A stretch of 64,000 nt of DNA, from positions 496,001-560,000 of the forward strand of contig NZ_PSTZ01000001.1 in NCBI RefSeq assembly GCF_002931555.1, read 5' to 3'. A program made the translations under genes and the position numbers. This stretch comes from Pseudoclavibacter sp. RFBB5 (GTDB lineage Bacteria; Actinomycetota; Actinomycetes; Actinomycetales; Microbacteriaceae). Positions 15,178-64,000 of the stretch are shown piece after piece. Position 1 is the stretch's first letter; the number at the start of each line of letters is the position of its first letter. The notes beneath the pieces are model-generated. The model was given only the letters and a program-made list of their open reading frames with translations. It was not told where the DNA came from and ran no database searches.

Positions 15178-15978
15178 TTACACGCTCGGCGCCCCGAGCT
15201 CCCGCGAGATGCGGTCGGCCGCGGCGATCGCGGCGGGCGCGAGTTCCTCGATGGTGTGCCCGGGGTACTCGAGCTCGATCGACGACACGGAGAGTCCGTG
15301 TGTCACGGCGCCCGTGTGGTCGCGGATGGGTGCCGACACGCACACGGTGCCGCTCTCGTTCTCGCCGAGGTCGGTCGCGTAGCCGCGAGCCCGCACGCGT
15401 GCGAGCTCCTCGTGGAGGGCGTCGAGGTCGGTGATCGTGAGGTCGGTGCGTCGGGGGAGACCCATGCGCTCGGCGAGTGCGTCGACCCGTTCGGGTGCCC
15501 AGTCGGCGAGCACGACCTTGCCCATACCGGAGCTGTGCATGGGCACGGCGAGGCCGACGCGGGATCGCATGCGGTACGGCTTCGCGGCGTCTCGGCGGAT
15601 GACGTAGACCATCTCCGAGTCGGTTGCGACGCCGACGTGGATGGTGCAGTCGACCTCGGCCGCGAGCTGCTCCACGAGGGGGGCGGCGACGCTGGAGATG
15701 TCGACGCTCGCGAGCGCCCGGCCGGACAGCGCGAGCAGGGTCGGGCCGGCCCGGTAGCCCTGCTCGGCGCTGCCGCCGAGGTACTCCTGCGAGACGAGGG
15801 TGGCGAGGATGCGGTGCACGGTCGCCTTCGCGAGCCCGGCCTCCGCGACGATGTCGGTGAACCGCGGGTGCGCGAGTGCCGCCGCGAGCACGCGCAGCGT
15901 CTTCTCGCTGGCCCCTGCAGATGGTGCGGGGGAGCGGTCCACGTCGTCCATGATGACCATCCTCGTCGTCTCCGTCAT
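15178..15978 (-). CDS. IclR-family transcriptional regulator (KdgR-like)
   Basis: A 266-residue repressor-type protein. A winged HTH (about residues 22-85: KTLRVLAAALAHPRFTDI, GLAKATVHRILATLVSQEYL) precedes an IclR effector domain (MHSSGMGKVVLADW, SVSSIELEYPGHTIEE). I chose ATG 15978, which overlaps the kduI stop (TGATG), rather than upstream in-frame starts. As the last gene of the TRAP-kduI operon it most likely senses a uronate catabolite such as 2-keto-3-deoxygluconate and binds the paired GAAAC-type sites at 19812-19858. Effector and sites are inferred. Confidence 0.88.
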   Translation of the reverse strand: MTETTRMVIMDDVDRSPAPSAGASEKTLRVLAAALAHPRFTDIVAEAGLAKATVHRILATLVSQEYLGGSAEQGYRAGPTLLALSGRALASVDISSVAAPLVEQLAAEVDCTIHVGVATDSEMVYVIRRDAAKPYRMRSRVGLAVPMHSSGMGKVVLADWAPERVDALAERMGLPRRTDLTITDLDALHEELARVRARGYATDLGENESGTVCVSAPIRDHTGAVTHGLSVSSIELEYPGHTIEELAPAAIAAADRISRELGAPSV

Positions 15979-16811
15979 CACCGCATGTCGGTGATCGGCA
16001 CAGAGTCCATGTCGTCGAACGACTGGTTCTCGCCGGCCATCGCCCATACGAACGAGTAGCTTGAGGATCCTACTCCGGAGTGCAGGGACCAGCTCGGGGA
16101 GAGGACGACGTCGCCGTTCGCGACCATGAGGTGGCGGGTTTCCTTGGGGGCGCCCATGAGGTGCACGACCCGCTGGTCGTCGTCGAGGTCGAAGTAGTGG
16201 TAGACCTCGGTGCGGCGGTCATGGGTGTGGGCGGGCATGGTGTTCCACATGCTGCCGGCGTGCAGGCTGGTGACGCCCATGACGATCTGGCAGCTCTTGA
16301 CGCCGTTCTCGTGGATGCACTGGCGCAGTGTGCGGCGGTTGGAGGTGACCTGGTCGCCGAGTTCGCGGATCGTGCCCTCTTCCGGGGTGACGAGCGTGTT
16401 CGGGTAGGTGGTGTGGGCGGGTGCGCTGAAGCCGTAGAACTTGGCGGGGTCGGCGGCGTCTGCGCTTTCGAAGGTCACGTCGACGGTGCCGCGGCCGAGG
16501 TACAGGACGGCCGTCTTGGCGAGCTCGTAGCGTTCGCCGTCCGCGACGATGGTGCCCGTGCCGCCGGTGTTGACGAAGCCGATCTCGCGGCGGTCGAGGA
16601 AGTTCTCGCTGCGCAGCTCGTCGACGGTCTCGAGCTTGAGGGGCGCGTCGACGGGGACGGCGCCGACGGTGACGACGCGGTCGAAGTGCGTCGAGACGAT
16701 GCGGATCTCACCGGGGGTGAGGAGCTGCTCGACGAGGTAGCGGTCGCGGAGTCCCTGCTGGTCGAGGGTGGGGATGTCTTCCGGGCGGCCCGGACGGTAC
16801 TGGTGAGACAA
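15978..16811 (-). CDS. kduI: 5-keto-4-deoxyuronate isomerase
   Basis: A 277-residue cupin enzyme, the same length as characterised KduI. It converts 5-keto-4-deoxyuronate (from unsaturated uronate) to 2,5-diketo-3-deoxygluconate in the cytoplasm. The zinc ligands are visible as His195 and His197 (PAHTHDRR), Glu202 (TEVYHY) and His244 (WSLHSGVG), matching the spacing in the Escherichia coli enzyme. It follows dctM by 42 bp and overlaps iclR. Its product feeds KduD of the divergent operon. Confidence 0.95.
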   Translation of the reverse strand: MSHQYRPGRPEDIPTLDQQGLRDRYLVEQLLTPGEIRIVSTHFDRVVTVGAVPVDAPLKLETVDELRSENFLDRREIGFVNTGGTGTIVADGERYELAKTAVLYLGRGTVDVTFESADAADPAKFYGFSAPAHTTYPNTLVTPEEGTIRELGDQVTSNRRTLRQCIHENGVKSCQIVMGVTSLHAGSMWNTMPAHTHDRRTEVYHYFDLDDDQRVVHLMGAPKETRHLMVANGDVVLSPSWSLHSGVGSSSYSFVWAMAGENQSFDDMDSVPITDMR

Positions 16812-16853
16812 GGGGATGCCTTTCGTTTGCGGTTGAGGTCAGGGGTGGTCGGG

Positions 16854-18161
16854 TCAGACCAGGCCGAAGAGGCCCGGCAGCCAGAGCGAGAGCTGCGGTA
16901 CGAACACGACCAGGAACAGGACGACGATGAGCGCGAGGAGGAAGGGGAGGAGGCGCATGATGACCGGCTCGAGCCTCACTCCCGCGACTTGCGCTCCGAC
17001 GAACAGCACGGGTGCCGATGGCGGCGAGATCACACCGATCGAGAGGTTCATGACCATCATGATGCCGAAGTGCACGGGGTCGACGCCGTAGGAGATGGCG
17101 ATGGGCAGGAAGATCGGTGTGAAGATCAGGATGGCCGGGGTCGGGTCGAGCGGAATACCGATGATGATCAGCACGATCATCATGATGAGCAGCACGACGA
17201 CCTTGGAGTCGGTCCACCCGAACAGCGAGTCGGCGAGGATCTGCGGCAGGCGTGCGTAGGTCATGACGAAGCCCATGATCGACGACACCGCGATCAGGAA
17301 GATGACGATGGAGCTGGTTCGCGCGGACTCGAAGAGGAGGCGCGGCAGGTCCTTCACGGACACCGTCCGGTAGATGAACGACAGCAGCAGGGCGTAGACG
17401 ACGGCTACTGCAGAGCCCTCAGTCGGGGTGAAGAACCCGGCGACGATGCCGCCGATGGCGACGACGATGAGGCCGAGCGCGGGGAGCGCCTTCAGGAAGG
17501 TGCTGACGATGACGCCGAACGCTGGCAGCGGCTTGCCGCGCAGCTCGGGGTGCTTGCGGGCGTAGAAGAAGACGACCACGGCGCAGGCGAGTGCCCAGAG
17601 GGCGCCCGGGATGTACCCGGCGACGAACAGGGCGCCGACCGACGTTCCACCCGCCGCGAGCGAGTAGATGATGAGCGTGTTGCTCGGCGGGATGATCATG
17701 CCGGCGGGGGCCGAGGCGACGTTCACGGCAGTGGAGAACGCGGGGTCGTAGCCGTCCTTCTTCTGCATGGGCGCCATGGTGGCGCCGACTGCGGAGGCCG
17801 TGGCGACGGCGGATCCGGAGACGGTGCCGAAGATCGCGTTCGCGATGACGTTGGTCTGCGCGAGCGGCGCGGGCATCCGCCCGACGAGCACTCGGGCGAG
17901 ATTGATGAGCCGTTCCGCGATGCCGCCGTTGTTCATGATGACGCCCGCTAAGACGAAGAACGGGATCGCGAGCAGGGCGAACGAGTTGGCGCCGCGGAAC
18001 ATCTGCTGGGCGCTGGTGATGGCTCCGTTGTCGAAGCCGAGGATGAGGAGCATGCAGAGCGCCGAGGGCAGTCCGATGCTGATGGAGATGGGCGCACCGA
18101 GCGCGAGCAGCAGGACGAGCCCGCCGACGAGGATCAGTGCGATGAGACCTGGCTCGATCAT
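16854..18161 (-). CDS. dctM: TRAP transporter large permease (DctM)
   Basis: A 435-residue polytopic protein with about 12 membrane helices and DctM signatures: GGIAERLINLARVLVGRMP, NAIFGTVSGSAVATASAVG, PPSNTLIIYSLAAGG and IGIPLDPTPAILIFTPIFLP. It is the Na+-coupled translocation subunit of a tripartite uptake system. Its start overlaps the dctQ stop (ATGA). With kduI next, the substrate is probably a uronate or unsaturated uronate; related TRAP systems accompany pectin and alginate monomer catabolism in other bacteria. Confidence 0.95.
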   Translation of the reverse strand: MIEPGLIALILVGGLVLLLALGAPISISIGLPSALCMLLILGFDNGAITSAQQMFRGANSFALLAIPFFVLAGVIMNNGGIAERLINLARVLVGRMPAPLAQTNVIANAIFGTVSGSAVATASAVGATMAPMQKKDGYDPAFSTAVNVASAPAGMIIPPSNTLIIYSLAAGGTSVGALFVAGYIPGALWALACAVVVFFYARKHPELRGKPLPAFGVIVSTFLKALPALGLIVVAIGGIVAGFFTPTEGSAVAVVYALLLSFIYRTVSVKDLPRLLFESARTSSIVIFLIAVSSIMGFVMTYARLPQILADSLFGWTDSKVVVLLIMMIVLIIIGIPLDPTPAILIFTPIFLPIAISYGVDPVHFGIMMVMNLSIGVISPPSAPVLFVGAQVAGVRLEPVIMRLLPFLLALIVVLFLVVFVPQLSLWLPGLFGLV

Positions 18162-18685
18162 ATGGATGCGGCCTCCGGGTCCTCGTGCCCACGCGACCTG
18201 ACGGAGTAGCCGGGCGAGAGCGTGCGTGAGATGTGCAGGACGATGTAGAGCGAGAAGAGGATGCCCGCGATGGGCAGGGCCAGGTAGAGCTGGCCCTGCG
18301 TCACCGGGAGGATGGGGTTGGACTGCCCCCAGGCGAGGATCGCCTGCTTGCCGCCGCCGTAGACGAGGGCGTAGAGGACGAACGCGAGGGTGGCGAGGTA
18401 GGCGACGATGTCGGCTCCGCGCTGGAGCTGCCTCGGCAGGCGCTCGACGAGGAAGTCCATGACGACGTCAGCCTTCTGGCCGACGACGACGGCGATGCCG
18501 ATGAAGCTGACCCACACGAAGGTGAAGCGTGCGGCTTCCTCGGTCCACGCGCTCGGTGCGTTCAGCACGAGTCTGGTGAACACCTGCCACACCACGAGCA
18601 GCAGCAGCACGCCGAAGAGCGCGATGACCAGTGCTTTCAGGATGCGTCCGAACCACAGCTCGACTGCGGCGGCGGCTTGCTTCAC
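18158..18685 (-). CDS. dctQ: TRAP transporter small permease (DctQ)
   Basis: A 175-residue protein with four transmembrane helices and the DctQ motif ARFTFVWVSFIGIAVVVGQKADVVMDFL. It bridges the large permease and the binding protein. It starts with GTG 18685, 3 bp after the dctP stop, and ends overlapping dctM by 4 bp, so the three genes are translationally linked. Confidence 0.92.
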   Translation of the reverse strand: MKQAAAAVELWFGRILKALVIALFGVLLLLVVWQVFTRLVLNAPSAWTEEAARFTFVWVSFIGIAVVVGQKADVVMDFLVERLPRQLQRGADIVAYLATLAFVLYALVYGGGKQAILAWGQSNPILPVTQGQLYLALPIAGILFSLYIVLHISRTLSPGYSVRSRGHEDPEAASI

Positions 18686-18688
18686 GAG

Positions 18689-19744
18689 CTAGCTCCTCGC
18701 TGCTTCGATGGCGTCGTAGATGGCCTGCGTGCGCTCGTTCGTGACGCGCTCCTCGTGGAGCGGGAGGGTCGCTTCGCGGAACGTCTCGACGTCGACCTCG
18801 TTGAACGTGGCGCCGGCCTCTTCGGCCTCGCCCTTGGCGGCGTCGACTGCCTCGGCGAAGAGCTCGAGCTCACGGTCGGAGCTCGCTGCGAGCAGGTCCG
18901 TCATCGTGGCCTGCACGTCCGGCTCGATGCCGTCCCACACCGTGGTGCCCGCGATGAGGTAGTCGGGCATCATGAGGTGCTGCGTCTGCGAGTAGAACGG
19001 CGCGATCTCGTCGTGCGAGAGGCTCGAGTAGATGAGCTCGTTGTTCTCGGCGCCGTCGAGCACGCCCGACTGGATGGCCGTGAAGACCTCACCCTGGGCC
19101 ATCGGCGTGCCGACGCCGCCCATGAGCTCCATCATCTTGACGTTCGTGTCGGAGCCGATGACGCGGATCTTCTGTCCGGCCAGGTCGGCGGGCGTCTCGA
19201 CGGCGCCCTTGCTCGAGTACACGTTGCGCACGCCGCCGTGGAACGCGGACAGCACCTTGATGCTGTCGTCTTCGACGGCGCCGTACAGGTCGCCCATGAT
19301 GGCGTCGTCGTTGAGCACCTGCATCTGGTGCTCTGGCGAGTCGTAGAGGTAGGGGAGGTTCACGACGGAGAAGTCGGGCTCGAAGTTCTCGAGCAGCGAG
19401 CCTGCGATCATCGCGAAGTCGATGGTGCCCGACTGCACCTGCTCGATCGTGGATGCCTGGTCGCCGAGCACCTCGTCGGTGTAGAGGTCGAGGGAGAAGC
19501 GGCCGTCGGTCGCCTCGTAGAGCTCGTCGGAGAACTCGAGCAGCGCCTGCGCCTGGGGGTGCTCGACGCTCTGGTTGAAGGCGACCCGGAAGGCCTTCTC
19601 GCTGCCCATGAGCTCGCCGACGCCTGGTTCCGCTCCGCCTTCAGTGCCGCCGCCCGCGCCGCTGCCAGAGCATGCGCTGAGGGTCAGTCCTGCGATTGCG
19701 ACGCCTGCGATGGCGCCGATCTTGCTGATCTTGCTGATCCGCAT
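18689..19744 (-). CDS. dctP: TRAP transporter substrate-binding lipoprotein (DctP)
   Basis: A 351-residue extracytoplasmic solute receptor. A lipoprotein signal (residues 1-21) ends in the lipobox LSAC, followed by a Gly/Ser linker and the DctP fold (FNQSVEHPQAQALLEFS, GQKIRVIGSDTNVKMMELMGG, LDGAENNELIYSSLSHDEIAPFY). The ATG at 19744 is chosen because GAGGAGG lies upstream; a longer frame upstream lacks this. It is the first gene of the minus operon; the promoter region is shared with the divergent dehydrogenase operon. Confidence 0.95.
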   Translation of the reverse strand: MRISKISKIGAIAGVAIAGLTLSACSGSGAGGGTEGGAEPGVGELMGSEKAFRVAFNQSVEHPQAQALLEFSDELYEATDGRFSLDLYTDEVLGDQASTIEQVQSGTIDFAMIAGSLLENFEPDFSVVNLPYLYDSPEHQMQVLNDDAIMGDLYGAVEDDSIKVLSAFHGGVRNVYSSKGAVETPADLAGQKIRVIGSDTNVKMMELMGGVGTPMAQGEVFTAIQSGVLDGAENNELIYSSLSHDEIAPFYSQTQHLMMPDYLIAGTTVWDGIEPDVQATMTDLLAASSDRELELFAEAVDAAKGEAEEAGATFNEVDVETFREATLPLHEERVTNERTQAIYDAIEAARS

Positions 19745-19798
19745 GGTTCCTCCTCGTTGAGTACTGGCGGCGCTTGCCTTTGCGCTCGCCACGACCGC

Positions 19799-19858
19799 TA
19801 TAGTAGCCAGATGAAACCGAGTTCCGCCAGTCGGACCTCGCAACGGAAACAAGTTTCA
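19799..19858. promoter_or_regulatory. Divergent uronate promoter region with paired IclR/KdgR-like operators
   Basis: Two imperfect inverted repeats, TGAAACCGAGTTCC (19812-19825) and GGAAACAAGTTTCA (19845-19858), are spaced exactly 33 bp, about three helical turns. The second resembles the KdgR-type box with GAAAC and GTTTC arms. A -10-like TATAGT lies at 19799-19804 with TTGCCT at 19774-19779 as possible -35 of the plus operon. Assignment to the IclR protein of this locus is inference. Confidence 0.55.
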
Positions 19859-19878: not shown

Positions 19879-20898
19879 GTGAGAGCAGCGCAGTACAGCG
19901 GCGAGCACCGCATCGTCGTCAACGAGGTCGAGGCGCCAGCGCCGGCCAGCGGCGAAGTCCAGATCCGGGTCGCCTACACGGGCATCTGCGGCACCGACCT
20001 GCACGTGCTGCACGGGTCGATGGATGCACGCGTCGACGTCCCGCAGGCCATCGGCCACGAGATGAGCGGCACCGTCGAGTCCGTCGGCGAGGGCGTCACC
20101 GCGTTCGCCGCCGGCGACAAGGTCACCGTCATGCCCCTCGACTGGTGCGGCACCTGCCCCGCCTGCAAGGCCGGCAACTCGCACATCTGCCAGAACCTGA
20201 ACTTCGTCGGCATCGACTCGCCCGGCTCGCTGCAGGAGCTGTGGAACGTGCGCGAGGACCTCGTCGTCCCGCTGCCGGCATCCCTCTCCCTCGAGCACGC
20301 CGCACTCGTCGAGCCGCTCGCCGTCGCCTGCCACGACGTGTCGCGCTCGCGGCTCACCGAAGGCGAGACCGCCGTCGTCATCGGCGGCGGCCCCATCGGC
20401 CAGCTCATCGCGCTCGTCGCCGCCGCCACCGGCGCGACCGTGTACGTCATCGAGCCCAACCCCGAGCGTCGCGCGCTCGCCGAGCGCCTCGGCGCCCGCA
20501 CCATCGACCCGACCACGAGCGACGCGGTCGCGATCATCGACGAAGCGACCGGCTCAGCCGGCGCCGACGTCGTCTTCGAGGTCGCCGGCGTCGCCGTCAC
20601 CGCCCTCACCGCCGTCGACTACGCGAAGGTCCGCGGACGCGTCGTGCTCGTCGCCATCCACCCCAACCCGGTGCCCATCAACCTCCACCGCGTCTTCTGG
20701 CGCGAGCTCGAGCTCATCGGCGCCCGCGTCTACGTGCGCGCCGACTTCGAGCGGGCCATCGAGCTGCTCGCATCCGGCGCCGTCCCCGCCGACGAACTCA
20801 TCACGAGCGTCGTCGGGCTGAGTGAGACCCAGTCGGCCTTCGACCAGCTGTCGGGTGCCGCCGCCATGAAGATCCTCGTCAACGTTCAGGAAGGCTAA
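19879..20898 (+). CDS. Zinc-dependent medium-chain alcohol dehydrogenase
   Basis: A 339-residue MDR enzyme. The catalytic zinc site includes GICGTDLHV and GHEMSGTV. The structural zinc lobe is WCGTCPACKAGNSHIC. The NAD-binding Rossmann motif is VVIGGGPIGQLIALVAAA. The family includes sorbitol, threonine and uronate/aldonate dehydrogenases. The position at the head of a kduD-eda-kdgK operon suggests reduction or oxidation of a uronate-derived keto acid or hexonate. The exact reaction cannot be assigned. It starts with GTG preceded by GGGAGCACGGGA; kduD follows after 2 bp. Confidence 0.85.
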   Translation: MRAAQYSGEHRIVVNEVEAPAPASGEVQIRVAYTGICGTDLHVLHGSMDARVDVPQAIGHEMSGTVESVGEGVTAFAAGDKVTVMPLDWCGTCPACKAGNSHICQNLNFVGIDSPGSLQELWNVREDLVVPLPASLSLEHAALVEPLAVACHDVSRSRLTEGETAVVIGGGPIGQLIALVAAATGATVYVIEPNPERRALAERLGARTIDPTTSDAVAIIDEATGSAGADVVFEVAGVAVTALTAVDYAKVRGRVVLVAIHPNPVPINLHRVFWRELELIGARVYVRADFERAIELLASGAVPADELITSVVGLSETQSAFDQLSGAAAMKILVNVQEG

Positions 20899-20900
20899 CC

Positions 20901-21650
20901 ATGACCAGCTTCGACCTCACCGGAAAGACCGCAGTCGTCACGGGAGCCCGCCGCGGCATCGGCCTCGGCATCGCCACCGCCCTCGCCGAAGCCGGCGCAG
21001 ACATCATCGCCGCCTCCTCGCAGCAGGAAGCCGACGGGGGCGAGGTCGGCGCGCGCGTCCGCGCCCTCGGCCGCAGCTTCGAAGGCCACGGCGTCGACTT
21101 CACCGACCGCGCCGCGGTCGAGCAGTTCGGCGACGCCGTCAAGCACGCCGACATCCTCGTCAACAACGCCGGCACCATCCGCCGCGCACCAGCGGCCGAG
21201 CACTCGCTCGACTGGTGGGACGAGGTCATCCAGGTCAACCTCTCCAGCCAGTTCGTGCTCAGCCAGATCGTCGGCGGCGCGATGGTGGAGCGCGGCGAGG
21301 GCCGCATCATCTTCACCGCGAGCCTCCTCAGCTTCCAGGGCGGCATCAACGTGCCCGGCTACACCGCATCGAAGTCGGCCATCGCGGGCCTCGTGCACGC
21401 GCTCAGCAACGAGTGGGCGGCGCGCGGCGTGACCGTCAACGCCATCGCCCCCGGCTACATCGCCACCGACAACACGGAGGCGCTGCGCGAAGACAGCGAC
21501 CGCTCGCGCTCCATCCTCGAGCGCATCCCGGCCGGCCGCTGGGGTGAGGCCGACGACCTCGGCGGCGCCGCCGTGTTCCTCGCGAGCCCCGCCGCCGCGT
21601 ACGTCACGGGCGTCGTCCTCCCCGTCGACGGCGGGTGGCTCGCGCGATGA
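20901..21650 (+). CDS. kduD: 2-dehydro-3-deoxy-D-gluconate 5-dehydrogenase
   Basis: A 249-residue short-chain dehydrogenase. The cofactor motif is TGARRGIGLGIATALAEAGAD, NNAGTIRR is conserved, and the catalytic Ser-Tyr-Lys lie in TASLLSFQGG and YTASKSAIAG. It reduces 2,5-diketo-3-deoxygluconate to 2-keto-3-deoxygluconate. General SDR similarity alone would not fix this, but the NNAGTIRRAPA motif and the kduI neighbour make KduD the best call. Its stop overlaps the aldolase start (ATGA). Confidence 0.9.
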   Translation: MTSFDLTGKTAVVTGARRGIGLGIATALAEAGADIIAASSQQEADGGEVGARVRALGRSFEGHGVDFTDRAAVEQFGDAVKHADILVNNAGTIRRAPAAEHSLDWWDEVIQVNLSSQFVLSQIVGGAMVERGEGRIIFTASLLSFQGGINVPGYTASKSAIAGLVHALSNEWAARGVTVNAIAPGYIATDNTEALREDSDRSRSILERIPAGRWGEADDLGGAAVFLASPAAAYVTGVVLPVDGGWLAR

Positions 21651-22288
21651 GCTCCCTCTTCGAGGGGCACCCCATCGTTCCCCTCTCCACACCGAGCACC
21701 ACCGCGCAGGCGGAAGCGCTCGCCGACGGGCTCGTCGCCGGCGGCATCGGCATCGTCGAGATCGCCCTCCGCGGCGACGGGGCGCTCGCCGCGATGCGCC
21801 ACATCGCGGGCCGCCCCGACCTCATCGTGGGAGCCGGCACGGTCCTCGACGTCGAGCAGGCGCAGCAGGCGCTGGATGCGGGTGCCCAGTTCCTCGTGTC
21901 GCCCGGCCTCTCGGCCGACGTGGTGCGCGCCGGACAGCGCGCGTGCGTGCCCGTGCTCCCCGGCACCCTCACGCCAACCGACATCACGGCGGCCCGCGAG
22001 CTGGGGCTCACGCAGCTCAAGCTGTTCCCCGCCGGAAACTTCGGCGGGCTCGCGCTGCTCGGCACCTACGCGTCCGTGTTCCGCGGCATCACGTTCATGC
22101 CGAGCGGCGGCATCACGCCCGCGAACCTCGCCGAGCACCTCGAGCATCCGGCCGTCTTCGCCGTCAGCGGCAGCTGGCTCGGCGGCGCGAAGCTGCTTGA
22201 CGCCGGAGCGGATGCGGTCGCCGCGGCGGCACGCGAGGCGTCAGAGATCGCCGCCCAGGTGCTGCAGGCCAAGGCGGCCGCCGCGTGA
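21647..22288 (+). CDS. eda: KDPG aldolase family protein (2-keto-3-deoxy-6-phosphogluconate aldolase)
   Basis: A 213-residue class I TIM-barrel aldolase, splitting KDPG to pyruvate and glyceraldehyde-3-phosphate. Motifs are VEIALRGDGALAAMR (the conserved Glu of the general base), GAGTVLDVEQAQQALDAGAQFLVSPG and LKLFPAGNFGG with the Schiff-base Lys, then MPSGGITPANLAEHL for phosphate binding. The ATG at 21647 overlaps the kduD stop; an upstream GTG is less likely. It overlaps kdgK at the 3' end. It could also act on the 6-phosphogalactonate epimer. Confidence 0.92.
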   Translation: MSSLFEGHPIVPLSTPSTTAQAEALADGLVAGGIGIVEIALRGDGALAAMRHIAGRPDLIVGAGTVLDVEQAQQALDAGAQFLVSPGLSADVVRAGQRACVPVLPGTLTPTDITAARELGLTQLKLFPAGNFGGLALLGTYASVFRGITFMPSGGITPANLAEHLEHPAVFAVSGSWLGGAKLLDAGADAVAAAAREASEIAAQVLQAKAAAA

Positions 22289-53280: not shown

Positions 53281-53327
53281 AGGAGAGTCCTCGAGTGTTG
53301 GGCTTCGGGGCTAGGTGCGCTGATGCT

Positions 53328-53398
53328 GACAACCGGTTGCCACTCTAAACCTGACCCCATTCTTCGTCAATGCTGGCCAATGAATGCGATCGGTTGCC
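53328..53398 (-). promoter_or_regulatory. Sulfatase 4 promoter between two LacI-type operators
   Basis: On the minus strand -35 TTGACG (53365-53370) and -10 TAGAGT (53342-53347) are 17 bp apart. GGCAACCGGTTGTC (53328-53341) abuts the -10 on its downstream side; GGCAACCGATCGCA (53385-53398) lies upstream. Site centres are 57 bp apart, suiting looping repression. Confidence 0.65.
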
Positions 53399-53402
53399 GT
53401 TT

Positions 53403-53484
53403 AGTCGATGCAGTCGATGCAGTCGATGCAGTCGATGAGCGGAGCGCTCGCACTCGCGCTGGCACTCGCACTCGCACTCGCGCA
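53403..53484. repeat. Two short tandem repeat tracts
   Basis: AGTCGATGC (9 bp) is repeated almost four times at 53403-53438, followed by a degenerate CTCGCA (6 bp) tract at 53447-53484. They lie between the 3' end of the DeoR/LacI gene and the sulfatase promoter, in non-coding sequence as far as I can see. No other feature is evident from 53485 to 53580. Confidence 0.8.
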
Positions 53485-53580
53485 TTGTCGGTTGACCTGT
53501 TCACCCCATGGGAGCCGTCGAATGTCGCGCCGCAGCCATCCGACACCGCGAGGAGAACGGGGCCCGGCGTCCCGTCCCGC

Positions 53581-56816: not shown

Positions 56817-56880
56817 CGTCGACCTACTTCTCAGGGGTGGTGCTCGCCGCTGCTGCGGTGGTGGTGTTGCCACTGGAATC

Positions 56881-56942
56881 GATCGTAAACGATCATGCAC
56901 GATCATAACCGCATTGTTGTGATCGAGAATGATTGCTACTCT
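56881..56942. promoter_or_regulatory. Divergent promoter region with repeated GATC-palindrome operators
   Basis: GATCGTAAACGATC (56881-56894) is a 6-2-6 perfect inverted repeat. Related half sites follow: ACGATC at 56900-56905 and GTGATCGAGAATGATTGC at 56919-56936. TTGTTG (56914-56919) and TACTCT (56937-56942), 17 bp apart, may be the plus-strand promoter. These are candidate sites for the DeoR/LacI chimera. Confidence 0.5.
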
Positions 56943-57007
56943 TTCGAAACGTCACCACCCCCGGGGGACGCCGCAGGCACCCCGGACGGCAATTCAAAGG
57001 AGAATCC

Positions 57008-58966
57008 GTGTCCACTGCACTCACGCCCGAAGCGCCCGCCGCTGCGCTTCCGTCAGCGTCGCAGCGAGCATGGACCCGCGACGACTGGACCGCCTACGCC
57101 GACCGCCTCCTCACGGGCGCCATGGCCTGGTCCTCTCCGGGCAAGGGGCGCATCACCCCTCCCGGCGCGGAGGGTGGCTACGGTCACGACATCGACGGCC
57201 TCGAGGGCTTCGCCCGCACGTTCCTCCTCGCCGGCTTCCGCATCGCGGGGGAGCGCGGCGAGGGCGTCGACGAGCTCATCTCCTTCTTCTCCGAAGGCGT
57301 CCGCACGGGCGTCGACCCGGATGCGGCCGACCGCTGGGTGCGCCTCGAGGAGCACCCGCAGGCGAAGGTGGAGGCGGCGTCGCTCGCCCTCATCCTCGAC
57401 CTCACGCGCCCCTGGATCTGGGATGCGCTCGACGAGCTCACGCAGCAGCGCGTCATCGACTACTTCGCGCCGGCCGTGGGCGACGACACCTACCCGCGCA
57501 CGAACTGGCTGTGGTTCCGCCTCGTCGTGCAGACCTTCCTGCGCTCCGTCGGCGGCCCCTGGTCGCCGGAGGACGTCACCGACGACCTCGCCCTGCACGA
57601 CTCGTTCGTGCGCGCCGACGGCTGGCTCTCCGACGGCGACGAGCGCTCCTACGACCACTACGTCGGCTGGGCGCTGCACATCTACCCCGTCCTCTGGTCG
57701 CGGATGCGCGGGGCCAGCGAGCTCGCGGGCGACCGCCTCGCCGGAGACGTCGCCGCCCTCGACCGCTTCCTGCAGGACGCCGTGCACCTCATCGGCGGAG
57801 ACGGCTCCCCGCTCCTGCAGGGCCGCAGCCTCATCTACCGCTTCGCCGCCGCCGGCCCGTTCTGGGTCGGCGCGCTCGCGGAGGTTCCCTCGGTCTCGCT
57901 CGGCGCGCTCCGCCACGCGGCCGAGAAGGTCGTCTCCCACTTCGCCGAGCGCGGCGTGCCGGACGAGCGTGGCCTCCTCACGATGGGCTGGCTCGACGAG
58001 TGGCGCCAGCTCGCTCAGGCCTACTCCGGCCCCGCCTCCCCGTACTGGGCCTCGAAGGGCCTGCTCGGCATCCTCCTCCCCGCCGACCACCCCGTCTGGG
58101 CCGCCGAAGCCGACCCGCTCCCCGTCGAGCAGGGCGACTTCGTGCGCACGATCGCCGCCCCGGGCTGGGTCGTCACCGGTACGAAGAGCGACGGCATCGT
58201 GCGCATCGCCAACCACGGCACCGACCACGCGAAGCCGAACACGCTGGTCGGCGACTCGCCCCTCTACGCCCGCATCGCCTACTCGAGCGCAACCAGCCCG
58301 CTGCTCGACGACGCCGCCTGGCACGAGCCGCTCGAGCAGTCGGTCGCGCTCGTCGAGAGCGCCACCACGGGCGAGAACGCCACCACGGGCACCGAAACCG
58401 CCACGCACCGCGCCGCGATGGAGCTCCTTGCCACGACCACCGACGGCGACGCCGGCGTGGCCGCATCCACCTGGCTCGCCCACACGCTGGTCCCGAGCGC
58501 GAAGCAGCAGCGCCACGGCTCCGGCCTCGACGGCGAAGCGACGGTCGTCGCGCGCCTCACGGTCGTCTCGGTCGTGCGCGGCGCCGAAGAGGTGCGCCTC
58601 GCCCGCGTCACCGACCTCGCCGACGGCGTCGACGAGAGCGACTGGATGCTCCGCTGGGGCGGCTGGCCCGTCACGAGCCGACAGGATGCGCAGATCACGA
58701 GCGCACTCCGCGGCCTGACGGCGGGCACGACGGCACGCACCGTGACGCGCACGGACGCGAGCCCGCTCGGCGCATCCACCGCGGTGCCCGTGCTCGACGC
58801 CCCCGTCGAGGTCGGCACCTGGGCCGCCGCCCACCTCACCCTCGCGGGCGCAGACCACACCCCAAGCCCCACCACCGGCGTCGAGCTCACCGATGAGCTC
58901 GCCGCCATCACCTGGTCGGACGGGGCGCACAGCACCGTCGACCTCACCAACTACCGCCTCTCGTAG
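57008..58966 (+). CDS. DUF2264 domain protein
   Basis: A 652-residue cytoplasmic protein. The N-terminal 370 residues match the DUF2264 alpha-barrel type (RLLTGAMAWSSPGKGRITPPG, YGHDIDGLEGFARTFLLAGF, NWLWFRLVVQTFLRSVGG, YDHYVGWALHIYPVLW), followed by a C-terminal beta-rich part. DUF2264 genes often lie next to heparinase-like lyases and sugar importers and are presumed carbohydrate-active, but no activity is established. The start is GTG 57008 after AAAGGAGAATCC. It heads the operon carrying the sugar importer and GH88. Confidence 0.82.
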   Translation: MSTALTPEAPAAALPSASQRAWTRDDWTAYADRLLTGAMAWSSPGKGRITPPGAEGGYGHDIDGLEGFARTFLLAGFRIAGERGEGVDELISFFSEGVRTGVDPDAADRWVRLEEHPQAKVEAASLALILDLTRPWIWDALDELTQQRVIDYFAPAVGDDTYPRTNWLWFRLVVQTFLRSVGGPWSPEDVTDDLALHDSFVRADGWLSDGDERSYDHYVGWALHIYPVLWSRMRGASELAGDRLAGDVAALDRFLQDAVHLIGGDGSPLLQGRSLIYRFAAAGPFWVGALAEVPSVSLGALRHAAEKVVSHFAERGVPDERGLLTMGWLDEWRQLAQAYSGPASPYWASKGLLGILLPADHPVWAAEADPLPVEQGDFVRTIAAPGWVVTGTKSDGIVRIANHGTDHAKPNTLVGDSPLYARIAYSSATSPLLDDAAWHEPLEQSVALVESATTGENATTGTETATHRAAMELLATTTDGDAGVAASTWLAHTLVPSAKQQRHGSGLDGEATVVARLTVVSVVRGAEEVRLARVTDLADGVDESDWMLRWGGWPVTSRQDAQITSALRGLTAGTTARTVTRTDASPLGASTAVPVLDAPVEVGTWAAAHLTLAGADHTPSPTTGVELTDELAAITWSDGAHSTVDLTNYRLS

Positions 58967-59029
58967 CCCGGGCGTCGGTTTTCAGGGATCCGAAGCGGGT
59001 CTCGTTCATTGCAGCAAAGGAGCAGCACC

Positions 59030-60322
59030 ATGAAGAAGCGCACCATGATCGCCACTGCGGGCCTCGCCGCCGCCGCACTGGCCCTCACCGGATGCAGCGG
59101 TGGCGGGAGCGTCGACCCAGACGGTCCCATCACGCTGTCGGTGTCGGGCTGGAGCGTCGCATCCACCCCCGAGTTCCAGCTGCTGGCGGACGGCTTCACG
59201 GAGAAGTACCCAGACGTGACCGTCGAGGTCGTCGACTACGACCCCGCCGAGTACAACACGCTCATCACGGCCGACCTCGCGGCCGGTTCGGGCCCCGACA
59301 TCATCACGCAGAAGGAGACGAAGTTCGTCACCACCTTCCAGGAAGGCGGACAGCTGCTCGACGTGTCCGACATCGAGCTGCCCGAGGGCATCAGCGGCGC
59401 CGCGTCGTACGAGATCGACGGCACCACGTGGGCGACCCCGTACCGCCAGGACTCGTGGGTGCTCTACTACAACAAGGCCCTCTTCGACCAGGCAGGCGTC
59501 GCCTACCCGGACGGCAGCTGGACCTGGGACGACTACGTCGAGAACGCCGACCTCCTGACGCAGAACCTCACCGCAGCGGGCTCGACCGCCAAGGGCGCGC
59601 ACCAGCACAGCTGGCAGTCGACCGTCCAGGGCTTCGCCAACGCGCAGGCTGACGGCGACATCTTCAGCGGAGAGTACGACTACTTCGAGAAGTACTACGA
59701 CAACTCGCTCAAGCTGCAGGACGACGGCGCGCAGGCCTCCTTCAACACGGTCACGGCCAACAAGCTCACCTACCAGGGCGAGTTCGGCAAGCAGAAGGCC
59801 GCGATGATCCCCATGGGCTCGTGGTTCGTGGCGACGCTCATCTCGCAGCAGGCGGCCGGCGAGGCCGACGACTTCGAGTGGGGCATCGCACCTGTGCCGC
59901 AGATGGATGCATCCACCGCCGGTCTCGAGAACACCCCCGTCACGTTCGGTGACCCTGCCGGCTTCGGCATCAACGCCAACATCGACGAGGGCAAGACGCA
60001 GGCCGCCAAGGACTTCCTCGCCTACGCAGCAAGCGAAGAGGCGGCGACGAAGCTCGCCGGCATCGGCATCACCCCGGCGCTCCTGAGCGACCCGGTCGTC
60101 GAGGCGTACTTCGGCGTCGAGGGCGCCCCGCAGGACGAGCTCTCCGCGTTCGCCGTGCAGACGCACGAGACGCTCCCCGAGAGCCCGACCAACTCGAAGA
60201 CCGCCGCCGTCCAGAACATCCTGAACGACATGCACTCCTCGATCCTCTCCGGCTCGAAGTCGGTCAAGGACTCCATCACGGAGGCCGAGACCCGAGTCGC
60301 CAACGAAGTCGGCCTCGACTAA
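59030..60322 (+). CDS. Sugar ABC transporter substrate-binding lipoprotein (family 1)
   Basis: A 430-residue lipoprotein with signal and lipobox LTGC at about residue 21, then the family-1 oligosaccharide-binding fold (YPDVTVEVVDYDPAEYNTLI, GSGPDIITQ, YRQDSWVLYYNKALFDQAGV, PVTFGDPAGFGINA). AAAGGAG precedes ATG 59030. With the lyase and GH88 in the neighbourhood, its ligand is likely an unsaturated or saturated uronate oligosaccharide. No ATPase gene is near; a shared MsmK/UgpC-type ATPase elsewhere is presumed. Confidence 0.92.
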   Translation: MKKRTMIATAGLAAAALALTGCSGGGSVDPDGPITLSVSGWSVASTPEFQLLADGFTEKYPDVTVEVVDYDPAEYNTLITADLAAGSGPDIITQKETKFVTTFQEGGQLLDVSDIELPEGISGAASYEIDGTTWATPYRQDSWVLYYNKALFDQAGVAYPDGSWTWDDYVENADLLTQNLTAAGSTAKGAHQHSWQSTVQGFANAQADGDIFSGEYDYFEKYYDNSLKLQDDGAQASFNTVTANKLTYQGEFGKQKAAMIPMGSWFVATLISQQAAGEADDFEWGIAPVPQMDASTAGLENTPVTFGDPAGFGINANIDEGKTQAAKDFLAYAASEEAATKLAGIGITPALLSDPVVEAYFGVEGAPQDELSAFAVQTHETLPESPTNSKTAAVQNILNDMHSSILSGSKSVKDSITEAETRVANEVGLD

Positions 60323-60333
60323 CCCCTCTCGTC

Positions 60334-60363
60334 GGTCGGCCGGTGCTCTCTCACCGGCCGACC
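60334..60363 (+). terminator. Intercistronic hairpin after the binding-protein gene
   Basis: A perfect 12-bp stem GGTCGGCCGGTG / CACCGGCCGACC with a 6-nt loop and no U-run. It likely stabilises the upstream mRNA or lowers permease expression. Confidence 0.65.
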
Positions 60364-60385
60364 GGCACCTCTCTCCAGGAGAATC

Positions 60386-61333
60386 ATGACCACCACAACG
60401 GAACCGGCGCAGCCGAAGGCCGCGCCTGAGGGCCTGTCGCCCGAGGCGCGCAAGCTGCGCAACCGCTCACGTCTCAAGCGCTCGCTTGTCGGCTGGAGCT
60501 TCATCCTGCCGAACTTCCTCGGCTTCGCGACGCTGACGCTCGTGCCCGTCATCGTGCTGTTCTACATGTCTCTCACGAACTGGAACATCTTCGGCACCTC
60601 GACGTTCGTCGGCTTCGACAACTTCACCCGACTCCTGGGCGACGGCAGCTTCCAGGTCGCGTTCGGCAACACCATCTACTACTCGGTGCTGCACATCCCG
60701 CTCACGATCGTCGTTTCGCTCGGGCTCGCGCTGCTGCTCAACAACAAGCTCCGCGGCGTCGCGTTCTTCCGCACGGCCGCGTTCTTCCCCTACATCACGT
60801 CGATCGTCGCGATCGCGCTCGTCTGGAACCTGCTCTTCAGCCCGGACTTCGGCCCCATCAACGAGGGCCTGCGCCTCATCGGCATCGACAACCCGCCAGG
60901 CTGGCTCACCTCCATGGAGTGGGCGATGCCCGCGGTGGTCATCATCAGCACGTGGCGCGACATGGGCTACTACATGGTGCTCTTCCTCGCGGCCCTGCAG
61001 ACGGTGCCGCCCGAGCTGCACGAGGCCGCACGCGTCGACGGCGCGAACGCGTGGCAGCGCTTCTGGAACGTGACGCTGCCTTGCCTGCGCCCGACGATGT
61101 TCTTCGTCACCGTCATGCTGACGATCAACTCGCTGAAGATCTTCGACCTCATCCTCGTGCTCACCGAGGGCGGGCCGGGCCAGTCGACGACCGTCATCTC
61201 CCAGTTCATCTACCGCAAGGGCTTCGAGGAGAACGAGTTCGGATACGCGTCAGCGGCCTCCGTCGTGCTGTTCCTGCTCTGCATCGTCGTCACGATCATC
61301 CAGTTCATGTGGAACAAGCGGAAGGACAGCTGA
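60386..61333 (+). CDS. Sugar ABC transporter permease (MalF/UgpA type)
   Basis: A 315-residue permease with six membrane helices after a charged N-terminus. The EAA motif is ELHEAARVDGANAWQRFWNVTLPCLRP. CCAGGAG precedes the ATG. Its stop overlaps the next permease start (TGATG). Confidence 0.93.
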   Translation: MTTTTEPAQPKAAPEGLSPEARKLRNRSRLKRSLVGWSFILPNFLGFATLTLVPVIVLFYMSLTNWNIFGTSTFVGFDNFTRLLGDGSFQVAFGNTIYYSVLHIPLTIVVSLGLALLLNNKLRGVAFFRTAAFFPYITSIVAIALVWNLLFSPDFGPINEGLRLIGIDNPPGWLTSMEWAMPAVVIISTWRDMGYYMVLFLAALQTVPPELHEAARVDGANAWQRFWNVTLPCLRPTMFFVTVMLTINSLKIFDLILVLTEGGPGQSTTVISQFIYRKGFEENEFGYASAASVVLFLLCIVVTIIQFMWNKRKDS

Positions 61334-62247
61334 TGTCCCAGACCATGGCAGTCGTCCTCCCCGAGGAGACCACGACCCCCCTCTCGACCGACCACGTCGA
61401 GCCCGCGAAGCCCGCTGGCAAGAAGGAGCACAAGCTCGCTCGCGCGCTCCTGTACGTCATCCTCATCGTCGCCGCGGCCGCGATGCTCACGCCGTTCTTC
61501 TGGATGATCATGAGCTCCCTCAAGGAGGCCAACGCGGTCTTCTCGGTGCCGGTGCAGTGGATCCCCGAGGTCTTCGTCTGGCAGAACTACGTCGACATCT
61601 GGACCAAGTCGGACATCATGACCTGGATCGGCAACACGCTCATCCTCTCGGTCACCGTCACGGCCCTGCAGGTACTCACCGGCTCGTTCGCCGCCTACGG
61701 CTTCTCGCGCGTCAAGTTCCCCGGCCGCGACGTGCTCTTCCTCCTCTACGTCGGAACGATCGCCGTGCCGTGGCAGTCGTACATGATCCCGCAGTTCATC
61801 CTGCTGTCCAACGCGAACCTCTCGAACACCCTCTGGGCGATCATCCTGCTGCAGGCGTTCGGCGCCTTCGGTGTGTTCCTCATGAAGCAGTTCTACGAGA
61901 CCATCCCCATGGAGCTCTCCGAGGCGGCCCGCCTCGACGGGCTCAGCGAGTACGGCATCTGGCGGCGCATCATGCTGCCGCTGTCGGTCCCGGCCATCGC
62001 GAGCCTCTCGCTGCTGACGTTCGTCAACACCTGGAACGACTACCTCGGACCGCTCATCTACCTGCGCGACCCGAGCCTCTGGACCATGCAGCTGGGCCTC
62101 AAGAACTTCGTCTCGAGCCTCTACGACGTCGACTACGGCGTGCTCTTCGCGGGCCTCACCATCTCGGTGCTGCCCATCGCGATCGTGTTCCTCCTCGGCC
62201 AGCGGTACTTCGTCGAGGGCATCGCGACCAGCGGAATGAAGGGCTAG
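61333..62247 (+). CDS. Sugar ABC transporter permease (MalG/UgpE type)
   Basis: A 304-residue partner permease with six helices. The N-terminal loop has FFWMIMSSLKEANAVF and the EAA motif is ELSEAARLDGLSEYGIWRRIMLPLSVPA. ATG 61333 overlaps the preceding stop. It is followed after 3 bp by the DUF624 gene. Confidence 0.93.
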   Translation: MSQTMAVVLPEETTTPLSTDHVEPAKPAGKKEHKLARALLYVILIVAAAAMLTPFFWMIMSSLKEANAVFSVPVQWIPEVFVWQNYVDIWTKSDIMTWIGNTLILSVTVTALQVLTGSFAAYGFSRVKFPGRDVLFLLYVGTIAVPWQSYMIPQFILLSNANLSNTLWAIILLQAFGAFGVFLMKQFYETIPMELSEAARLDGLSEYGIWRRIMLPLSVPAIASLSLLTFVNTWNDYLGPLIYLRDPSLWTMQLGLKNFVSSLYDVDYGVLFAGLTISVLPIAIVFLLGQRYFVEGIATSGMKG

Positions 62248-62250
62248 GCC

Positions 62251-62913
62251 ATGAAGCGCATCTCGCACGGCGTCTACGCGACGGCGTTCAACGTCACCTA
62301 CCTGGCGCTCGCCGTCAACCTGATGCTCGCGGTCATGAGCCTGCCGTTCCTCGTGCTGCTCGTGACCACCGACCCGTCACTGTCGTGGCCGCTGCTCGCG
62401 GCGAGCGCGGCGCTCACGGGGCCGGGCATCGCGGGTGCGTTCGCGACCTTCCGTGCGCACGCTGAGGGGGACACGGATGTGATCCGCGCCTTCATCAGCG
62501 GGGTGCGCCGCACCTGGAAGCGGGCGCTCGTGATCTCGGCGGTCACGTCCGCCGTGGTCACGGTCGCGCTCGTGGATGTGTTCGTGCTCGTCCCGACGGG
62601 CATCGGCGTCCTCCTCGTGCCGCTGCTCGTCGTCGTCGCGATCCTGACGCTCGCGACCGCAGCCGTGACGCTCGTGGCCATCACGCAGGCCGAGGACACG
62701 CGCCTGCTCGTGCTGGCGCGCGCATCCCTCATCCTCGCCGTGCGCCGCTGGCCGCTGACCTTCGCCTCGTTCGCGATCGTCGGCGTCCAGGCCGCCGTGC
62801 TCACGGCGGCCCCGGCCATCGCCATCGGCATCACCACCGCCGCCTGCCTCTACGTCGTCTGGGCTGGCGGCCGCTTCACCCTGCAGCAGGCACCCGCGCG
62901 CGTCGCGGCCTGA
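62251..62913 (+). CDS. DUF624 (YesL-like) membrane protein
   Basis: A 220-residue protein with about five to six hydrophobic helices. The start (ATAFNVTYLALAVNLMLAVMSLPFLVLLVTTDP) is typical of DUF624/YesL, which accompanies rhamnogalacturonan and other glycan importers in Firmicutes and actinobacteria. Function is unknown; it may assist the importer or act in signalling. It begins 3 bp after the permease stop and precedes GH88 by 32 bp. Confidence 0.8.
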   Translation: MKRISHGVYATAFNVTYLALAVNLMLAVMSLPFLVLLVTTDPSLSWPLLAASAALTGPGIAGAFATFRAHAEGDTDVIRAFISGVRRTWKRALVISAVTSAVVTVALVDVFVLVPTGIGVLLVPLLVVVAILTLATAAVTLVAITQAEDTRLLVLARASLILAVRRWPLTFASFAIVGVQAAVLTAAPAIAIGITTAACLYVVWAGGRFTLQQAPARVAA

Positions 62914-62945
62914 CTGACCTCCCGAACTCTCACGAAGGAACACCC

Positions 62946-64000
62946 ATGACTTTCGCGCCCGCATCCACGACCGTGGAGAACGCGCTGGCAGCGGCCACCG
63001 ACACCGTTCGACGCAATATCGAAGCGTTCGGTGCCGCCTACCCGGACGACACGACCAGCGACAACAGGTACCTGCTTCGCCCCGCCACCGACACCTTCGC
63101 GGAAGGCGCCAACCGCGGCTGGACCACCAGCTTCTGGCCGGGCATGATGTGGCTCGCCGGCGACGTCACGGGCGACGCGGTCTTCCACGAGGCCGCGCTC
63201 GCGCACGCCGTCGACTTCGAGCGCCGCCTGTACGGCGACGAGGATCTCGAGACGCACGACCTCGGCTTCCTCTACTCGCTCTCCGTCGTCACTGCGTGGA
63301 AGCAGACCGGCGACGAGCGCTGGCGCACGGCCGGCATCAAGGCCGGCGAGCGCCTCATGACGCGCTTCCTCGAGCCGGCCGGCATCCTGCAGGCCTGGGG
63401 CGACCTCAGCGACCCCGCGCAGCGCGGCCGCGCCATCATCGACAGCCTCATGAACATGCCCCTGCTCAGCTGGGTGGGCGAGCAGACGGGCGACCCGCGG
63501 TACGCGGATGCGGTGCGCCGGCACACGGAGCAGCTGCGCACGCAGATCTTCCGTGCAGACGACTCGACCTTCCACACCTTCTACTGGGATGCGGAGACCG
63601 GCGAGCCCCTGCGCGGCGGCACCGAGCAGGGCGCGTTCGACGAGTCCTGCTGGGCGCGCGGCGAGGCCTGGGGCATCTACGGCTTCGCGCTCAACTCGCA
63701 GACGGTCGGCGACCCGCGGCAGCTCGAGGCGGCCTGGCGGTGCGCCGACTACTACCTGGCGCACCTGCCGAGCGACGGCATCCCGTACTGGGACCTCGTG
63801 TACACCGAGGGCAGCGATGCGCCCCGCGACAGCTCGGCCGCCGCGATCGCCGCATGCGGGTTCTTCGAGCTCGCCGCCGTCGAGCCCGACCCGGAGCGCT
63901 CGGCCCGGGCGCTGCAGGCGGCGCACGCGCAGATCGACGCGCTCATGGCCGAGGCCACCCCGCAGCCGCCCGCGTCCTCTGACGCGCTCCTCCTGCACGG
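62946..64000 (+). CDS. ugl: Unsaturated glucuronyl hydrolase (GH88), 3' truncated by window edge
   Basis: The frame runs from ATG 62946 to the window end (351 residues visible). It hydrolyses the 4,5-unsaturated uronate from the non-reducing end of lyase products, giving 5-keto-4-deoxyuronate for KduI. The alpha6/alpha6 barrel motifs FAEGANRGWTTSFWPGMMWL, ETHDLGFLYSLS and WARGEAWGIYGF are present. Catalytic Asp105 and the second essential Asp166 (IIDSLMNMPLL) keep the 61-residue spacing of the Bacillus enzyme (Asp88, Asp149). No signal peptide. GAAGGAACACCC precedes the start. Confidence 0.94.
   Translation, partial: MTFAPASTTVENALAAATDTVRRNIEAFGAAYPDDTTSDNRYLLRPATDTFAEGANRGWTTSFWPGMMWLAGDVTGDAVFHEAALAHAVDFERRLYGDEDLETHDLGFLYSLSVVTAWKQTGDERWRTAGIKAGERLMTRFLEPAGILQAWGDLSDPAQRGRAIIDSLMNMPLLSWVGEQTGDPRYADAVRRHTEQLRTQIFRADDSTFHTFYWDAETGEPLRGGTEQGAFDESCWARGEAWGIYGFALNSQTVGDPRQLEAAWRCADYYLAHLPSDGIPYWDLVYTEGSDAPRDSSAAAIAACGFFELAAVEPDPERSARALQAAHAQIDALMAEATPQPPASSDALLLH

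Follow-up and report, generated by a model that had tools for sequence, protein, structure and literature searches.

The stretch analysed here, called the window throughout, is a piece of 64,000 nucleotides from the genome of Pseudoclavibacter sp. RFBB5 (positions 496001-560000, G000:C7; source genome of 3.77 Mb, 98% completeness). Between 15 and 64 kb it codes for sulfatases, a heparinase II/III-type lyase, glycosidases, importers and enzymes of uronate catabolism, a set that an earlier note, made from the sequence alone, had taken for one apparently complete intracellular pathway for a sulfated uronate glycan. The gene set looks like two units of different origin, not one: an older uronate locus and, inside it, an island with beta-glucuronide and sulfatase genes. 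The main genes within 15-64 kb were identified by Pfam scans, with NCBIfam models and solved structures (phmmer) as support. In the following list, by position in the window, the rows up to 26886 and from 53581 onwards belong to the older locus and those between to the island.

15178..16047, minus strand: IclR-family regulator (Pfam IclR_C 3e-42; 86-98% identical in three congeners)
15978..16811, minus strand: KduI (NCBIfam PRK00924, 387.8 bits, over cut-off)
16854..19852, minus strand: tripartite ATP-independent periplasmic (TRAP) transporter DctM, DctQ, DctP (Pfam; found in G155 and G073, not in the G153 stretch)
19879..20898, plus strand: zinc alcohol dehydrogenase (Pfam ADH_N; under NCBIfam cut-offs)
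20901..21650, plus strand: KduD-type short-chain dehydrogenase/reductase (NCBIfam kduD, 314.8 bits; cut-off 338.85)
21635..22288, plus strand: Eda (the genome's only PF01081 match)
22285..23232, plus strand: PfkB kinase, likely 2-keto-3-deoxygluconate (KDG) kinase (Pfam; specific NCBIfam cut-offs not reached)
23322..25274, plus strand: GH35 beta-galactosidase (Pfam 1.6e-111; start by eye)
25720..26886, minus strand: TerC membrane protein, last gene before the island (Pfam; start by eye; G+C at third codon positions, GC3, 0.969)
27097..53576, no strand: inserted island, 26,480 bp (absent at the orthologous site of 3/3 congeners; GC3 shift)
27194..27207, no strand: putative operator GGCAATCGGTTGCC upstream of S1 (palindrome match)
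27234..28874, plus strand: sulfatase S1 (CAPSR), nearest solved chains of S1_8 type (phmmer 9bb9 3.9e-55; start by eye)
28862..29583, plus strand: DUF202 pair, YidH-like and YidG-like membrane proteins (Pfam; 42% to E. coli YidH, 29% to YidG)
29662..29763, no strand: two putative operators upstream of the importer genes (palindrome matches)
29845..35063, plus strand: Dpp/Opp-type ATP-binding cassette (ABC) importer: binding protein, permease, permease-ATPase fusion, ATPase (Pfam except for the permease)
31463-32404, plus strand: permease of this importer (named from position and from matches beside other importer genes in relatives)
35018..36079, plus strand: metallo-beta-lactamase (MBL)-fold hydrolase (Pfam; GntH model 325.3 bits, cut-off 333)
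36042..37529, plus strand: sulfatase S2 (CVPSR) (Pfam, structure matches, NCBIfam)
37575..38741, plus strand: LacI-family regulator, probable reader of the operator (Pfam; 48-66% identical LacI in 9/10 glucuronide loci)
38782..39816, minus strand: LysR-family regulator (Pfam)
39812..39936, no strand: three putative operators upstream of UxaC, the first overlapping the LysR start (palindrome matches)
40096..41553, plus strand: UxaC (the genome's only PF02614 match; NCBIfam)
41550..42965, plus strand: fructuronate-reductase candidate, UxuB-like (under cut-offs; the D-arabinitol dehydrogenase model outscores fructuronate reductase)
42965..44812, plus strand: GH2 beta-glucuronidase (GUS) with Loop 1 (52% to E. 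coli UidA; NCBIfam PRK10150 over cut-off)
44809..46047, plus strand: ManD mannonate dehydratase (NCBIfam over cut-off)
46090..47856, plus strand: sulfatase S3 (CIPAR), widespread actinobacterial type (Pfam; survey of relatives)
47849..48874, plus strand: formylglycine-generating enzyme (FGE) (Pfam 5.7e-76; sole genome match at 1e-10)
48861..50243, plus strand: CHR-family (chromate transporter) protein, possible sulfate exporter (Pfam 3.2e-27)
50290..50811, plus strand: GntK/IdnK-type gluconokinase (TIGR01313 over cut-off)
50935..53280, minus strand: sulfatase S4 (CSPSR), arylsulfatase type, about 200 further C-terminal residues (phmmer 7all 7.4e-87, 1hdh 3.2e-78)
53328..53398, no strand: two putative operators upstream of S4 (palindrome matches)
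53581..54681, minus strand: regulator with DeoR helix-turn-helix and LacI sensor, DeoR/LacI below (Pfam; 96-99% identical in G155, G153 and G073)
54678..56906, minus strand: PL33-type heparinase II/III lyase (8r73 8e-66; 8/8 mapped residues conserved)
56933..58966, plus strand: DUF2264 (GH154) protein, likely glucuronate dehydratase (PF10022 4.9e-100; 9o4u 5.2e-19; residue pattern)
59009..62913, plus strand: sugar ABC importer and DUF624-like protein (Pfam for binding protein and first permease; DUF624 below cut-off)
61330-62247, plus strand: second permease of the sugar ABC importer (named from position and matches beside other importer genes)
62946..64000, plus strand: GH88 unsaturated glucuronyl hydrolase, cut by the window end (Pfam; 1vd5 1.7e-82)

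The three importers are thus of TRAP, Dpp-type ABC and sugar ABC families, and the gene content that the earlier note had read off by translation is borne out by Pfam and NCBIfam, which also recover FGE, the lyase, GH88, GUS, GH35, KduI, KduD, Eda, UxaC and ManD. The four sulfatases score over the PF00884 cut-off, feature the C-x-P-x-R motif in 4/4 cases and are all the PF00884 genes found in the genome (five rows, two of which are pieces of S1). The UxuB-like protein (mannitol-dehydrogenase family) and the KDG-kinase candidate score under every specific NCBIfam cut-off and KduD under its own, so that these three names lean partly on neighbourhood. The window holds the genome's only FGE, UxaC and Eda. 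N-termini, judged by eye without a signal-peptide program, display no evident signal in nine enzymes (the four sulfatases, the lyase, the DUF2264 protein, GH88, GUS and GH35), as the note had stated, while those of DppA and SBP1 are lipoprotein-like.

The boundary between the two units is defined by comparison within the genus (10 genomes, own genome G000 included). The DeoR/LacI regulator at 96-100% identity picks four of them, G000, G155, G153 and G073; the 96-99% matches were kept for locus comparison and paralogues at 38-45% were set aside. The spacing between the TerC gene and this regulator gene is 29 bp in G155, 8 bp in G153 and 103 bp in G073, versus 26,480 bp in the window (island edges 27,097-53,576, taken from the alignment with G155). 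In G155 and G073 the genes from IclR to GH88 form one continuous cluster, island aside; in the G153 stretch the TRAP and alcohol dehydrogenase genes have no match. GC3 ranges from 0.718 to 0.827 in 20 island genes and from 0.869 to 0.974 in 19 flank genes, two ranges without overlap. The empty sites in three congeners together with this shift lead to the block being read as an insertion, and insertion rather than loss is the probable direction of the event. Of the 10 genomes, only G000 and G151 have an FGE match at 1e-10 together with sulfatases that score above the Pfam cut-off. There is no PF00884 match in G155 or G073, one sub-cut-off match in G153 and no sulfatase among the older-locus genes of the window. 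UxaC is likewise absent from G155 and G153 and present once, elsewhere, in G073, whose own glucuronide genes sit at another place (GUS 56%); the island copies are not simply those of this congener.

G153 carries another insert of ~18.7 kb between the GH35 and TerC genes (contig C3), so the spot next to TerC seems insertion-prone. No tRNA was found in the window, and the genes scanned there include no integrase or transposase. Exact repeats of at least 9 bp were sought near the island edges and the sole one (11 bp) belongs to the palindrome described below; no target duplication is therefore seen. Short tandem repeats with units of 9 and 12 bp lie at 53403-53485, directly inside the right island boundary, and imperfect palindromic repeats (units of 22-115 nt), with matching stretches in G155, at 25310-25696 between GH35 and TerC.

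The regulation of the island genes is approached through a LacI-type palindrome, GGCAANCGNTTGCC, first noticed at both island ends. It has 12 matches in the window (≤2 mismatches) versus 3.59 expected. Of these, eight fall inside the 973 bp that precede four predicted transcription units, or no more than 8 bp outside that sequence, and four are elsewhere in the window. These units would be S1-DUF202 (unit 1), importer-MBL-S2-LacI (unit 2), UxaC to GntK with S3, FGE and CHR inside (unit 3) and S4 (unit 4). The two upstream regions that were not used to draw the pattern hold five sites versus ~0.03 expected. In relatives (≤1 mismatch) there are 26 sites in 200 kb, at 10/10 sulfatase-free glucuronide loci, for which ten Markov simulations give 0 or 1 site. 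The S3-type loci have 18 sites in 2.0 Mb (17/100 loci, a few of which overlap each other) and the PL33/native loci one site in 0.44 Mb (1/22 loci). Judging from this distribution, the palindrome belongs to the glucuronide system and the island sulfatases lie under it too. It is a putative operator whose reader is probably the LacI protein coded at 37575-38741.

The ten glucuronide loci (L162-L171) come from a survey of 150 genomes of the family, 12 of which have a near GUS relative (E ≤1e-100); 10 of the 11 other genomes were compared over 20-kb stretches, G072 being left out at a contig edge, and the presence counts are lower bounds. UxaC plus UxuB matches are found in 8/10, GntK in 8/10, ManD (71-90%) in 9/10, LacI (48-66%) in 9/10 and the importer ATPase (64-70%) in 7/10 loci. 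Sulfatase, FGE, DUF202 and CHR matches are found in 0/10 of these stretches. Since the glucuronide genes recur together without sulfatases in 10/10 relatives, the island looks like a glucuronide operon with sulfatases. It shares with these Microbacteriaceae operons, of varying completeness, the LacI regulator, Dpp importer, UxaC, UxuB-like enzyme, GUS, ManD, GntK and the palindrome, and differs by the addition of sulfatases, FGE, DUF202 and CHR.

GUS aligns with E. coli UidA over 595 positions (52% identity), including the region that we take to be Loop 1 of UidA, where the window protein has one residue fewer. Loop 1 (more than 15 residues) is linked to small glucuronides and the more open non-Loop-1 GUS to polysaccharides, according to PMC6351562. 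E. coli has both a UidA-type glucuronidase and a YidG/YidH pair of DUF202 type close to the sulfatase gene yidJ, as in the island, but uidA and yidFGHIJ lie at two separate places of its genome while their counterparts are joined here. Note that the MBL-fold hydrolase (35018-36079), just under the GntH cut-off, is coded within the run of sulfatase and importer genes. MBL-type sulfatases exist and it could be a fifth sulfatase.

S3 belongs to a widespread type. It has relatives in at least 573 stretches, mostly actinobacterial among the 80 listed (Rhizobiales and Chloroflexi records also occur), and at E ≤1e-100 is found in 15/398 family genomes, own included. Its best match to a solved structure is not close (4.1e-27) and no NCBIfam model was found to name it above cut-off; its motif is C-x-P-A-R, not C-x-P-S-R, in 33/33 aligned family sequences (window included; site 46234-46248). 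Neighbour genes were counted at the 80 listed S3 loci mainly at >150 bits, with a weaker tier at E ≤1e-8, and presence counts are lower bounds, some loci being short. At the main threshold FGE is present at 43, S1 at 8 and ManD at 2 loci, and UxaC, UxuB, GUS, lyase, dehydratase and GH88 at 0/80; the weaker tier adds GUS-like (3), UxuB-like (1) and ManD-like (5) matches. At least three Dpp-type genes lie near 23/80 and DUF202a matches near 8/80. GH3 genes lie within 10 kb of S3 at 30/80 listed loci versus 0/14 lyase neighbourhoods, without a significant difference between Dpp-bearing and other listed S3 loci (11/23 vs 19/57, P 0.31). Two further genomes of the 150, G068 and G108, have both S3 and GUS, coded more than 0.5 Mb from each other on one contig. 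Of all the loci examined, only the window has S3 and GUS together under one palindrome.

The PL family of the lyase, which the earlier note had proposed to settle, comes out as PL33-type. Its best solved matches are the four distinct deposited PL33 sequences (8e-66 to 3.7e-63), those to PL35 entries being far weaker (8khw 2e-10, 8khv 7.6e-08, 9o3q 5.8e-05). Eight PL33 residues reported as important in PMC11848413 (R103, H154, L174, N238, W239, W242, Y291, H444) are all kept, as hand-mapped from the printed alignment, at R123, H172, L193, N253, W254, W257, Y309 and H469, so that the catalytic and substrate-site residues are those of the family. Seven are invariant across 15 aligned sequences (window included) and W257, at the position of the PL33_1-type Trp W242, is nearly so. 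Identity as a heparin lyase was considered and rejected: the seven solved chains matched at E ≤1 are all PL33 or PL35 and none is a heparin lyase. PMC11848413 lists activities on hyaluronan, chondroitin sulfate, heparosan and gellan for PL33, and a Curtobacterium (Actinobacteria) PL33 inactive on the panel tested there.

The DUF2264 protein shows similarity both to PF10022 (4.9e-100) and to 9o4u (5.2e-19), which like 9nwf is probably BcGDH, judging by the entry names and PMC12269599. Judged by eye, on motifs and their spacing, nine of the ten active-site residues mutated in BcGDH have a counterpart, with Thr in the place of N176. The same source reports glucuronate dehydratase activity for GH154 (DUF2264), by which saturated ends are made ready for GH88. 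The GH88 of the window is similar to the unsaturated glucuronyl hydrolase 1vd5 (1.7e-82). Bacteroides caccae polysaccharide utilization locus 25 (PUL25), as described there, also encodes a dehydratase and a GH88 with a heparinase-fold lyase; the window differs in having PL33 rather than PL35, ABC and TRAP uptake, and no GH109 among the genes scanned.

The lyase is found in 16/150 family genomes, own included. Neighbourhoods of 20 kb (100 kb for G073) were searched at E ≤1e-10, the lyase being less than 6 kb from a contig end in G072 and G125 and weakly matched (35%) in G106. Sulfatase, FGE, DUF202 and CHR have no match near the lyase in 15/15 other genomes. The older locus thus has the look of a route for unsaturated uronates that comes with its own two importers and shows no sign of sulfate. 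It is predicted to degrade glucuronate-containing oligosaccharides inside the cell: the PL33-type lyase and GH154-type dehydratase would make unsaturated ends, GH88 would remove them, and KduI, KduD, KDG kinase and Eda would carry the product to pyruvate. To the left of the older locus (15-5381), genes code for a flippase-type protein, a UDP-glucose dehydrogenase family protein, an acyltransferase and a nucleotidyltransferase, as in polysaccharide biosynthesis; the dehydrogenase could make UDP-glucuronate, and the older locus might then recycle a self-made polymer.

In the island, sulfated glucuronides or short sulfated oligosaccharides would enter via the Dpp-type importer and be desulfated in the cytoplasm by S1-S4 after maturation by FGE. 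GUS would free glucuronate, which UxaC, the UxuB-like enzyme and ManD would convert to KDG, and the kinase and Eda of the older locus would finish it. No second Eda was found in the genome; KDG, if on this route, would therefore go through the flank Eda, most simply after the flank kinase. CHR and the DUF202 pair are candidate sulfate exporters. What the sequence shows directly is a block that is there or not at a single site, the composition shift, the shared palindrome, the family assignments and the sole Eda, UxaC and sulfatase set; insertion as the direction, the transcription units, the operator function, the LacI ligand, the substrates, the flux and this export are inferred from it.

The region is thus best read as an older uronate locus, acting on oligosaccharides as above, with an inserted 26.5-kb beta-glucuronide regulon to which sulfatases were added, for small sulfated glucuronides or short sulfated oligosaccharides; we give this joint reading, drawn from gene content and comparison, a probability of about 0.68. 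Several points weigh against it. Two of the four upstream regions served to draw the palindrome pattern, so the window test is partly post hoc, and the LacI-operator link comes from co-occurrence only. Some Loop-1 GUS process small glucuronides poorly (PMC6351562). The importer groups only modestly with glucuronide importers: in the tree of its two-domain protein, DppCD, it joins three of glucuronide type at 93/90 (not starred) with L171 falling elsewhere, and the tree of the second ATPase, DppF, leaves the grouping undecided. S3 and PL33 co-occur somewhat above expectation, in 3/16 lyase genomes versus 3/134 others of the 150 (P 0.017; 0.079 without G000), so that the systems may be linked more widely; FGE and PL33 show no association (5/16 versus 31/134; P 0.54 and 0.75). 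In L084 (Microbacterium sp. Leaf159), genes for ManD (67%) and for KDG-kinase-, Eda- and UxuB-like proteins are found on the opposite strand a few genes away from S3, FGE and DUF202, so that S3 near uronate genes is not wholly unique. Finally, with four sulfatases that differ in type, more than one substrate may be served.

This last feature is also what an island devoted mainly to sulfur scavenging would display, releasing sulfate from varied esters with the glucuronide genes as a separate passenger: the sulfatases are of four different types, S4 being of arylsulfatase type, and S3 relatives are rarely near glucuronide genes and more often near FGE or GH3, in the listed proportions given above. 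However, the glucuronide-type palindrome is found at all four predicted units, and UxaC-UxuB-GUS-ManD form one run of close-spaced genes with S3 and FGE, neither of which sulfur-starvation control would predict; this explanation is unlikely.

Slightly less probable still is the earlier note's proposal that a single pathway serves a glycosaminoglycan or sulfated uronate polysaccharide, with lyase, dehydratase, GH88, sulfatases and GUS acting together on oligosaccharides imported from one glycan. All enzyme classes are present and meet at KDG, the lyase resembles a family with the activities cited above, GH88 resembles unsaturated glucuronyl hydrolases, including chains named unsaturated chondroitin disaccharide hydrolase, and S3 and PL33 show some co-occurrence in the family. 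Against this, three congeners have the lyase/dehydratase/GH88 block but lack the island; sulfatase and FGE have matches near the lyase in 0/15 other genomes, and the lyase block has none at the 80 listed S3 loci; the palindrome clusters at the island units, where the sulfatases share it with the glucuronide genes rather than with the lyase block; and GUS belongs to the Loop-1 class. The scan of window genes, which did not extend to the rest of the genome, turned up no hexosaminidase family. No tie of sulfatases to the lyase was seen in relatives or by shared regulation. The empty sites and the palindrome distribution are the grounds for setting aside a single pathway for a single polymer, and the data do not support one pathway for a glycosaminoglycan or polysaccharide, though the two blocks may be functionally linked. 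What stands of the note's proposal is a set for intracellular desulfation and uronate catabolism in a Microbacteriaceae member. Its rarity in actinobacteria is less than was claimed, because SulA1 of Arthrobacter, without signal peptide, lies near a glycosaminoglycan lyase. The Arthrobacter MAT3885 cluster (SulA1, SulA2; PMC10972148) places such a sulfatase beside a uronate-acting lyase, but that lyase is a PL8 chondroitin lyase and SulA1 acts on N-acetylgalactosamine 4-sulfate, whereas the window lyase is PL33-type.

That the island was ancestral in the genus and then lost from G155, G153 and G073 is very improbable: presence and absence alone cannot give the direction, and G151, a congener without the regulator of the older locus, carries an S3-S2-Dpp-FGE module, but this module has no glucuronide-gene match in the 40 kb examined and the GC3 of the island is fully separate from that of its flanks.

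Beyond the joint two-unit reading, a wider proposal is offered tentatively, at a little under even odds. The island would be a portable element in which a conserved actinobacterial glucuronide regulon (the palindrome and its LacI) captured intracellular sulfatases for doubly conjugated molecules, both sulfated and glucuronidated; its route would end at KDG, with the sole Eda in the host locus, and DUF202 and CHR would dispose of sulfate. No description of a sulfatase-bearing glucuronide regulon was found in the open-licence literature, judged by titles and abstract starts, in a search that likewise covered DUF202 and actinobacterial sulfatase clusters.

The tempting reading of one glycan thereby gives way to a probable case of pathway assembly by insertion, in which an acquired regulon without the last steps would have been placed in the one locus having Eda. 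A substrate prediction becomes available for the very common actinobacterial S3-type sulfatases, and the putative operator offers a way to find glucuronide regulons. The sulfatase-DUF202 neighbourhood common to the island and E. coli bears on the function of DUF202 proteins.

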